Shown here piece by piece: positions 1,106 to 60,059 of a DNA stretch of 64,000 bases. The number at the start of each line of letters is the position of its first letter. Position 1 is the first letter of the stretch. The notes beneath the pieces were generated by a model. That model saw only the letters and a program-made list of their open reading frames with translations. It ran no database searches and was not told where the DNA came from. The translations under genes were made by a program, and so were the position numbers. Where the stretch lies: positions 1 through 64,000 of the forward strand of contig NZ_BBWH01000033.1 of NCBI RefSeq assembly GCF_001463705.1, written 5' to 3'. This stretch comes from Aureimonas sp. AU12. GTDB lineage: Bacteria; Pseudomonadota; Alphaproteobacteria; Rhizobiales; Rhizobiaceae.

Positions 1106-2413
1106 ATGACCGACTTTTCCCCCCGCGAGATCGTCTCCGAGCTCGACCGCCACATCATCGGCCAGGGCGACGCCAAGCGCGCCGTCGCCGTCGCGCTGCG
1201 CAACCGCTGGCGCCGGCAGCAGCTCACCGGTTCGCTTCGCGAAGAGGTGATGCCGAAGAACATCCTGATGATCGGACCGACCGGCGTCGGCAAGACCGAG
1301 ATCTCGCGCCGCCTCGCAAGACTTGCCGGCGCGCCCTTCATCAAGGTCGAGGCGACGAAGTTCACCGAGGTCGGCTATGTCGGGCGCGACGTCGAGCAGA
1401 TCATCCGCGACCTCGTCGAGATCGGCATCGGCCTCGTGCGCGAGAAGAAGCGCGAGGAGGTCAAGGCCCGGGCCCACCAGGGCGCCGAGGACCGGGTGCT
1501 CGACGCGCTCGTCGGCAAGACCGCTTCGCCCGCGACACGCGACAGCTTCCGCAAGAAGCTGCGCTCGGGCGAACTCGACGACAAGGAGATCGACGTCGAG
1601 GTGGCCGATACGTCCAACCCGATGGGCGGGCTCGACATTCCCGGCATGCCCGGGGCGAATGTCGGTGTCCTCAACCTGTCCGAGATGTTCGGCAAGGCGA
1701 TGGGCGGGCGCACCAAGCAGCGCCGCACCAGCGTCAAGGAGAGCTACGACCTTCTCATCAACGAGGAGTCGGACAAACTGCTCGACAACGAGGTGGTGGT
1801 CGCCGAGGCGATCTTCGCGGTGGAGAACAACGGCATCGTCTTCCTCGACGAGATCGACAAGGTCGCCAACAAGGACGGCCATGGCGGCGCCGGCGTCTCG
1901 CGCGAGGGCGTGCAGCGCGATCTGCTGCCGCTCGTCGAAGGCACCACCGTCGCCACCAAGCACGGGCCGGTCAAGACCGACCACATCCTCTTCATCGCGT
2001 CCGGCGCCTTCCACGTCTCCAAGCCCTCCGACCTCCTGCCCGAACTGCAGGGCCGCCTGCCCATCCGCGTCGAGCTGAAGGCGCTGACGAAGGACGACTT
2101 CCGCCGCATCCTGACCGAAACCGAAGCCTCGCTCATCAAGCAGTACATCGCCCTGATGAAGACCGAGAACGTCGATCTCGAGATCACCGACGACGCCATC
2201 GACGCCATCGCCGATCTCGCGGTGTCGCTGAACGGCTCGATCGAGAACATCGGCGCCCGCCGCCTGCAGACCGTGATGGAGCGCGTCCTCGACGACATCT
2301 CCTTCGAAGCCCCCGACAAGGGCGGCCAGAGCTACCGGGTGGACGGCGCCTACGTCCATAAGGCCCTCGACGGCATCGCGGGCAATACCGACCTGTCGCG
2401 CTTCATCCTTTGA
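1106..2413 (+). CDS. hslU: HslU, ATPase subunit of HslVU protease
   Basis: A 435-residue AAA+ unfoldase that, with the HslV peptidase, forms a cytoplasmic ATP-dependent protease. Visible hallmarks are the start [20 protein letters not shown], Walker A ([12 protein letters not shown]), the pore loop GYVGRD, an inserted I domain in the middle, Walker B (GIVFLDEID) and the C-terminal tail DLSRFIL, which in this family docks into HslV. The ATG at 1106 gives the normal family length; upstream in-frame starts would add non-homologous sequence. Unusually, hslV is not next to it within the window. The 3' end is duplicated just downstream (see the repeat at 2381-2468). Function is very secure. Confidence 0.97.
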
Positions 2414-2468
2414 AGCGCGTGCCGGGTCTTGTTGGCAACACCGACCTGTCGCGCTTCATCCTTTGAAG
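2381..2468 (+). repeat. Duplicated 3' tail of hslU
   Basis: The last 35 bp of hslU (2381-2415, coding [10 protein letters not shown] and the stop) recur at 2434-2468 with one mismatch. The second copy is out of frame with the first. Just upstream of it the codons would read G-L-V against G-I-A in the gene, so the resemblance extends slightly at protein level. A weaker third echo (GATCTGGCGCGCTT, 2468-2481) follows. It may be a remnant of a second hslU allele or a local duplication. Confidence 0.85.
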
Positions 2469-2553
2469 ATCTGGCGCGCTTAGCTGGCAGCACTCACTCG
2501 TCGCGATCCCTCTTCTGGGACGCGGCGAGCCTTGCCGATGAGACCGATCGCAC

Positions 2554-58892: not shown

Positions 58893-59207
58893 TCATGAGG
58901 AGACCTTCATCAGGATGATGCCGCTGCCGATCAGGCCCGCGGCGGCGAGCCGCATCGGCGTGGCGGCTTCGCCAAGGACCAGGATGCCGACGGCAAAGGC
59001 GCCGATCGCGCCGATCCCCGTCCAGATCGCATAGGCCGTGCCGAGCGGCAGCGAGCGCATCGCCACGGCGAGCAATGAGAAGCTCCCGAGCATCAGGACG
59101 AGCGTGGCGACCGTGGGCCAGAGACGGGTGAAGCCGGCGGACTGCTTCATCGAGAAGGCCCAGGCGACTTCGAGGAGACCGGCAACGAGAAGGAAGAGAT
59201 AGGGCAC
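58893..59207 (-). CDS. sugE: Guanidinium exporter Gdx/SugE, SMR family
   Basis: A 104-residue four-helix small multidrug resistance protein that works as a dual-topology dimer. It begins at a GTG (59207). Residues known to be essential in Gdx are at the expected positions: Glu13, Ser42, Tyr59 and Trp62 (in GLLEVAWAFS, LGSFSLLA, GTAYAIWTG). This and FTRLWPTV place it with Gdx rather than quaternary-ammonium pumps. A guanidine-II riboswitch lies directly upstream, supporting export of guanidinium in exchange for protons. Confidence 0.93.
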   Translation of the reverse strand: MPYLFLLVAGLLEVAWAFSMKQSAGFTRLWPTVATLVLMLGSFSLLAVAMRSLPLGTAYAIWTGIGAIGAFAVGILVLGEAATPMRLAAAGLIGSGIILMKVSS

Positions 59208-59271
59208 GACGCACCTTCGATGTGGGTCGGGTCGTCCCGGGGCGGTTCCATCGGGCAGGGTCGTCCCCGCC
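59208..59271 (-). ncRNA. Guanidine-II riboswitch (mini-ykkC)
   Basis: On the minus strand two hairpins each close on an ACGA tetraloop: GGCGGGG-ACGA-CCCTGCC (59271-59254, 7-bp stem with one G-U) and CGGG-ACGA-CCCG (59239-59228), with a 14-nt linker. GAAGGTG (59218-59212), a plausible SD, follows before the GTG at 59207. Paired ACGR-loop hairpins are the hallmark of the guanidine-II riboswitch, which frees the SD of guanidine exporter genes. Its position before gdx/sugE is the expected one. Confidence 0.9.
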
Positions 59272-59324
59272 ACTCGAGATGTGGGACCGCCCTGCGGCGT
59301 TTCAAGCCGGCGGGCCGGCAGGTT

Positions 59325-59816
59325 TCAGCCCGGCCGTGGCCCGGCGTCGCCGCCGCTGCGAAAGCCGAGCGCCGCGCACCAGTCGCGCCGCCGTCCGCCG
59401 TCATAGGCGTCTACCAGACCCTCGCGCAGCAGGCGCTTGCCGATGTCGGGCTCGTCCGGTCCGGCGAGATCGGCCAGCACGCGGCCGAAATACTTGTCGC
59501 CGGCAATATGGGTCAGCCGGACCGGCCCGGCGCCGACCAGCGCCACCAACCGGTCGCGGGCGTCGCGGGCCGCGGCGCGTTCGGCCTCGCAGTCGCCCTT
59601 AAGCTCCGGCGCATCGACATTGCGCAGCCGCACCGCGACCGTCACCGTCTGCAGCGGCCAGATGAAAGCCTCGACCTCCACCGTGTCGCCGTCGCGCACC
59701 TTGACGACGCGCGCCTCCACCGGCCCGGCGATTTCGCGCGGCGGCAGGTCGTCGGCGGCTTGGGCGGCGAAAGGCAGGGCGGTCAGAAGGGCGAGAAGGC
59801 GGCAGACGGAGCGCAT
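59325..59816 (-). CDS. Thermonuclease family protein (SNase-like)
   Basis: A 163-residue secreted nuclease-like protein with a signal peptide (MRSVCRLLALLTALPFAAQA). The SNase domain has VVKVRDGDTVEVEA and VRLRNVDAPELKGDCE, with the active-site Arg, Asp and Glu positions recognisable, and DKYFGRVLADL. I favour the ATG at 59816; one at 59828 is four residues longer. It lies upstream of sugE on the same strand but likely has its own promoter, as the riboswitch separates them. Confidence 0.88.
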   Translation of the reverse strand: MRSVCRLLALLTALPFAAQAADDLPPREIAGPVEARVVKVRDGDTVEVEAFIWPLQTVTVAVRLRNVDAPELKGDCEAERAAARDARDRLVALVGAGPVRLTHIAGDKYFGRVLADLAGPDEPDIGKRLLREGLVDAYDGGRRRDWCAALGFRSGGDAGPRPG

Positions 59817-60059
59817 GGACGGGAGCATAGCGCAGGAAAGACTAAATTCCTAGTTGATGTCGAGCCGCCGGGAGCGCGGTGCAAGCGCCGCGTCTGAGGC
59901 TTCAGCCCTAAACGATGACTTGGCGGCAGCTGCACAAGACCGTCCTGTTCGGCCAAAGCACACGTCAGGAGTGAAGTCCTATATCCTGCGTTCGTCCCAG
60001 GAGTTGGGACGACACCCGTCCGGCCGATCGCGAACGGGGAGGTCGGTGCGCCGCCTCGC

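Follow-up and report, generated by a model that had tools for sequence, protein, structure and literature searches.

The window analysed here, a 64,000-nucleotide stretch of the Aureimonas sp. AU12 genome, carries on its minus strand an SMR transporter gene (gdx) and, directly ahead of it, two hairpins with ACGA loops: P1, with seven base pairs (one of them G-U), and P2, with four (Table 1). P2 lies 20 bases before the GTG start codon, and an SD-like stretch in between is presumably complementary to the 3' end of the 16S rRNA. Both hairpins, the 14-nt linker, the SD and a GTG at 59207 are placed as the initial annotation had described them.

Table 1. Features of the gdx leader in the window, and second F0 subunit a genes at other guanidine-II loci (coordinates within each locus)
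Feature	Position	Strand	Basis
gdx, 104-aa SMR transporter, GTG start, stop codon ends at 58893	58893..59207	-	PF00893; PDB relatives
Guanidine-II (mini-ykkC) riboswitch	59271-59228	-	RF01068 covariance-model match
P1 hairpin GGCGGGG-ACGA-CCCTGCC	59254..59271	-	RF01068 match; covariation in 71 distinct P1 of Gdx loci
14-nt linker CGATGGAACCGCCC	59240..59253	-	sequence
P2 hairpin CGGG-ACGA-CCCG	59228..59239	-	RF01068 match
SD-like GAAGG/AGGUG	59212..59218	-	sequence; short, weak
-35-like box TTGAAA	59300..59305	-	sequence; similar boxes in relatives
-10-like box ACATCT, 17-nt spacer	59277..59282	-	weak by E. coli consensus; YATCTN in relatives
Second subunit a, L036	1562-2308		
Second subunit a, L114	1562-2311		
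Second subunit a, L115	1564-2313		
Second subunit a, L053	1275-526	-	
Second subunit a, L063	about 1784-2533		

A guanidine-II element ahead of a Gdx-type gene

The annotation had called the hairpin pair a guanidine-II riboswitch controlling Gdx and had named a covariance-model search for mini-ykkC among its checks. The search supports this: the full RF01068 model matches at 59270-59227 (minus strand) with 38.1 bits, its gathering score being 32 (cmscan E of 5e-4 with 4227 families run over all 64 kb). No other Rfam family reached its gathering score in the 64-kb window, and this is the one RF01068 match in the 4.67-Mb genome. The same genome gave no match to Guanidine-I (RF00442) or UAAP1 (TIGR03425), and none to PACE (NF033664) in a search that was silent in every control genome as well, so that absence of PACE is not implied.

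The 104-aa product scores 95.7 bits with PF00893 (SMR; gathering score 23.7), and its best PDB relatives are chains of the Gdx-Clo type, 8vxu (E 4e-24) and 6wk5 (E 1.1e-24), the latter of which we take to be Gdx-Clo itself, the listing giving the SMR family. EmrE gives E 1.9e-13. Being nearer to Gdx-Clo than to EmrE, the product is, as judged from its sequence, a Gdx-type SMR transporter. The initial annotation had identified it by Glu13, Ser42, Tyr59 and Trp62, all of which are present in the translation from 59207; however, EmrE carries all four as well in the alignment, which makes them marks of SMR pumps at large. W16 and K101, marks of the Gdx subtype, both align with Gdx-Clo, and W16 does not align with EmrE. 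The alignment to Gdx-Clo, an SMR guanidinium exporter, runs over the full length with E13, S42, Y59, W62, W16 and K101 in register. The window gene differs from it in its GTG start and its alphaproteobacterial origin, and transport is here a prediction from sequence. The nearest named Gdx is that of Aureimonas sp. Leaf427 (76% identity).

Could the switch instead precede a broad-range quaternary-ammonium pump of the EmrE type, which would not export guanidinium? The residues shared with EmrE would fit, as would the score with the NCBIfam SugE equivalog (NF008512), which at 112.2 bits falls under the 126-bit cut-off; we therefore call the product "Gdx-type" and not "SugE by the NCBI rule". The next family nevertheless reaches just 64.8 bits, Gdx-Clo is by far the best solved match, with W16 and K101 aligned, and a two-hairpin leader precedes none of the four distant SMR paralogues examined in the genus. 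On this evidence, we regard an EmrE-type pump as very improbable. The second SMR match in the AU12 genome itself (C20, 36% identity) has a leader (L247) that lacks the two-hairpin arrangement.

The start codon proposed at 59207 also holds up, in that residue 1 aligns with residue 1 of Gdx-Clo and with that of the same-genus orthologues. Fixing it is useful because the longer open frame offers a wrong start, an in-frame GTG at 59273 that lies ahead of P1 and of the probable transcription start.

Conservation and covariation of the hairpin pair

Of 101 relatives, 29 have an RF01068 match, as do 111 of 397 genomes of the order and 39 of 385 genomes of the class. Within the genus, the model matches 8 of 21 genomes, a close Gdx gene is present in 20 of the 21, and two ACGR hairpins stand no more than 110 bases upstream in 18 of 21 close Gdx loci; the other three loci have one (the second hairpin in L228 and L233, the first in L241). 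The model thus appears to miss genus loci with long linkers or a weak P1. Upstream letters of two same-genus loci, L229 and L240, are the same as in L146 and L150 (both Aureimonas). A protein-based search gave 80 named Gdx loci: two ACGR hairpins are present in 51 of them, a single one in 15 and none in 14.

We counted covariation over distinct stems with ACGR loops, taken from relatives that are not independent of each other. In Gdx loci it is strong at P1 pairs 3-5 and at P2 pair 4, while inner pairs are near-invariant and outer ones often unpaired. P1 pair 4 is paired in all (100%) of 71 distinct P1 stems against 67% after shuffling (maximum 79%), P1 pair 5 in 83% against 38%, and P2 pair 4 in 100% of 46 distinct P2 stems against 53%. 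The stems of PACE loci (see below) are too uniform to judge.

These comparisons bear on whether the leader is a chance pair of G+C-rich hairpins with no regulatory role. The nonamer GGGACGACC alone would allow it, as it occurs twice in the window where shuffles give a mean of 1.42, and by itself it is no rarity in a G+C-rich window. What stands above chance is the spaced hairpin pair ahead of an SMR gene, kept in relatives; together with the RF01068 score and the covariation, this makes a chance origin next to negligible. By model, gene family, conservation and stem covariation, the element belongs to the guanidine-II class, and we consider it highly probable that it is a guanidine-II ON switch of a Gdx-type pump, where ligand response and transport are inferred.

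As a member of the class, the switch is an ordinary addition. Guanidine-II switches ahead of efflux genes, gdx included, are already described in PMC12186494 and PMC5486947. It shares with those of E. coli (gdx/sugE), Pseudomonas aeruginosa and Gloeobacter violaceus the two ACGR-loop hairpins, a linker that varies across the class, a position near the ribosome site of an SMR gene and a presumed role as translational ON switch. It differs from them in its short P2 (four pairs), in the promoter-like boxes that abut P1 and in the masking strand that our calculations favour.

A variant P1 with a 6-nt loop, CCACGN in place of ACGR, precedes gdx in 10 of the 80 named loci (L145, L164, L169, L181, L182, L185, L190, L196, L200 and L209), where P2 keeps ACGG; other P1 loops are CGACGT (L161) and the 5-nt AACGR (L163, L183). 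Rfam models run on 12 of these 13 loci matched L200, L163 and L183, all below threshold. The exact variant pattern occurs in one of 385 class genomes, so either the variant is rare in this sample or the exact pattern is too strict. Relatives also gave matches to microRNA-type Rfam families, which were set aside as far below gathering scores.

Probable promoter and proposed masking of the ribosome site

Because the -35-like and -10-like boxes abut P1, the aptamer should form the 5' end of the mRNA, with a probable transcription start near 59271, the first base of P1. Most Gdx relatives have a TTG-type box at a similar distance upstream of P1. A generic sigma-70 scan found no promoter at the window leader, and the promoter call therefore rests on comparison. 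For this we used a matrix written by hand after viewing the sequences, which makes its scores partly circular, and shuffles of single bases; in the window it prefers CATCTC with an 18-nt spacer as the -10 reading. Across relatives, the best pair of a TTG-type box and a -10 box spaced by 16-18 nt beats shuffles in 72 of 76 Gdx loci (76 of 77 could be used, L102 being too short), 28 of 28 PACE loci and 15 of 26 UAAP1 loci, and in 63 of the 76 Gdx loci the -10 box ends 9-15 nt ahead of the P1 loop. That the boxes keep a fixed distance to P1, and that UAAP1 loci lack the signal, is better evidence for a promoter than the matrix scores. Upstream, a nuclease-like ORF (59325-59828, minus strand; PF00565, 24.7 against 21 bits) ends 19 bases before the -35 box, leaving a gap of about 50 bases in which the switch would carry a promoter of its own.

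We propose that a dedicated promoter would start the mRNA at P1. With guanidinium absent, P1 would be mostly folded and P2 often open, and the 5' arm and loop of the open P2 (GGGACGAC) could then pair with the start-codon region (GUCGUGCCC) and hamper initiation. Guanidinium would stabilise a loop-loop contact between P1 and P2, locking P2 and freeing the SD and the GTG; the Gdx that is then made would export guanidinium in exchange for protons.

In the minimum-energy fold of the window leader, GGGACGAC of P2 is paired with GUCGUGCCC over the GTG, and GGGACGAC (59238-59231) is also complementary to GTCGTGCCC at 59210-59202. In the minimum-energy fold of the locked leader, the CGATG of the linker pairs with the complementary CATCG at 59222-59218. 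In the ensemble, P1 is formed at 0.72 and P2 at 0.28, although five bases added upstream of P1 are enough for the minimum-energy fold to open P1 and keep P2, by 0.1 kcal/mol. These energies describe secondary structure only, with the kissing contact, Mg2+ and ligand left aside, and the relatives compared below are not independent.

For the effect of locking, P1 and P2 were forced to fold with open loops and the costs of opening the ribosome site compared. Locking lowers the cost by a mean of 2.95 kcal/mol in 61 Gdx leaders (2.04, sd 0.18, when the tails, meaning everything after P2, are exchanged among loci; 0.47, sd 0.20, with shuffled tails) and by 1.86 kcal/mol in 25 PACE leaders (swapped 1.10, sd 0.29; shuffled 0.35, sd 0.23), while seven UAAP1 leaders show no gain (0.08 kcal/mol). 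The swapped-tail gain is presumably raised by the likeness of loops and start regions from locus to locus, and the excess of own over swapped tail is the locus-specific part. A gain above 1 kcal/mol is seen in 42 of 61 Gdx, 12 of 25 PACE and 1 of 7 UAAP1 leaders, and not every leader therefore behaves in this way. For the window, the gain is 2.0 and the cost of locking 2.2 kcal/mol. The calculated direction agrees with that of a ligand turning translation ON.

The locking calculation used 93 of 131 Gdx, PACE and UAAP1 loci, with leaders that began 6 bases before the model match, and a test of pairing with own against other ribosome sites used 98 of the 131. Loci kept in both had a seed alignment from residue 1, a start codon no farther than 45 or 32 bases from the match and two ACGR loops at least 18 bases apart.

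Which strand would mask the start? In the 61 Gdx leaders, P2 takes part in the pairing of the ribosome site with 0.29 of bases, ahead of the spacer after P2 (0.14), P1 (0.06) and the linker (0.04). The window ensemble follows this pattern, with P2 (0.31) as predicted chief partner ahead of P1 (0.16), the spacer (0.14) and the linker (0.02). In Gdx loci, P2 pairs better with its own ribosome site than with others' at p ~0.04, a weak test uncorrected over seven segments. Precedents point the same way: a stem-loop overlapping P2 and the ribosome site has been proposed for G. violaceus (PMC5486947), and constitutive gdx expression in E. coli accompanies a 20-bp deletion that includes P2 (PMC13064478).

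The same riboswitch could also mask its start mainly through the linker, the flanks or the 3' arm of P1, as an anti-SD or P0 helix. Published models include a putative linker anti-SD (PMC9094411) and a drawn anti-SD (PMC7544219), and for P. aeruginosa mutations support a different masking helix, P0 (PMC9561414). Between the window linker and the SD-start stretch, a pairing of -9.5 kcal/mol is possible. In the 25 PACE leaders, moreover, P1 and the linker (often CCTCCCC) share the pairing of the ribosome site, with 0.26 against 0.11 for P2. Against this stand the minute share of the linker in the window ensemble and the own-against-other test, in which the linkers of 64 Gdx loci paired no better with their own ribosome site than with others' (p ~0.96). 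A linker anti-SD conserved across Gdx loci was thus rejected. On balance, the modelling tips somewhat towards P2 as the main masking strand, with the linker, flanks or P1 a less probable but serious alternative. Given the P2 overlap in G. violaceus and P0 in P. aeruginosa, the expression platform may differ between lineages.

Other genes behind the same switch

The gene after the switch is an SMR gene related to the window's gdx in 77 of 143 loci of the order set, PACE in 28, UAAP1/DUF1989 in 26 (about eight of these, assigned at 29-38% identity, could be other DUF1989 proteins) and another gene in 12; 27 further class loci divide into 15 SMR, 3 PACE, 7 UAAP1/DUF1989 and 2 others. At two RF01068 loci, L133 (1573-1968) and L258, the switch is followed by genes for small proteins that resemble each other (132 and 135 aa); that of L133 has two ACT domains (PF10000, PF13840) and no NCBIfam match.

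The PACE (chlorhexidine-type) genes lie directly downstream of guanidine-II, in L007, L012, L014, L015, L021, L022, L027 and 21 other loci of the order set. All five proteins tested from RF01068 loci pass NF033664 (130-137 bits against 80) and PF05232. A close Gdx (E of at most 1e-20) is present in 2 of 28 PACE-switch genomes compared with about 144 of 397 genomes of the order, which suggests, in families that are unevenly sampled, that PACE replaces Gdx there. The gene order behind the switch further suggests guanidinium or guanidino cations as PACE substrates. Our literature search, by title and the start of the abstract, gave no paper linking guanidine riboswitches to PACE; the validation paper of the class and one structure paper lay outside this search, and as reviews treat efflux pumps as a broad group, the link may already have been published.

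A second F0 ATP synthase subunit a adjoins guanidine-II in 5 of the 143 loci, from three families of the order (Table 1). The three tested are PF00119 proteins. Each of the five switch genomes has two copies of subunit a, compared with one in each of six others searched. In a tree, the second copies group together, apart from 11 ordinary ones (support 98/94); one member of the group is long-branched. The second copies read RLFAV where all 11 ordinary copies read RLF(A/G)N, an Asn to Val change four residues after the conserved Arg. A gdx gene comes after the second copy in three of the five (L036, L114, G380); none was seen within the L053 and L063 stretches. L016, from the window's own family, has a 57-residue ORF (1479-1306, minus strand) separating switch and gdx. 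This ORF is more like the N-terminus of the second copies (E 2e-6 to 1e-3) than that of ordinary ones and, from this likeness, looks like a remnant of a second subunit a; L020 has a still shorter ORF at the same place. The second copy is possibly a guanidinium-tolerant subunit, and we conjecture that guanidinium competes with the conserved arginine of subunit a. A literature search on guanidine riboswitches and atpB returned only papers unrelated by title.

Altogether, the guanidine regulon of the order may be wider than described, comprising Gdx, urea-amidolyase-associated genes, part of the PACE family as exporters of guanidinium or guanidino cations that replace Gdx, and a guanidine-inducible F0 subunit a that would sustain ATP synthase against guanidinium-arginine competition; we offer this as a tentative picture, itself rather less likely than not. 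For the window, the switch suggests the inducer of the pump, a likely promoter and the start codon. For PACE, which family libraries name for chlorhexidine, it suggests a testable native substrate, and the genes behind the same RNA hint that guanidinium may affect ATP synthase.
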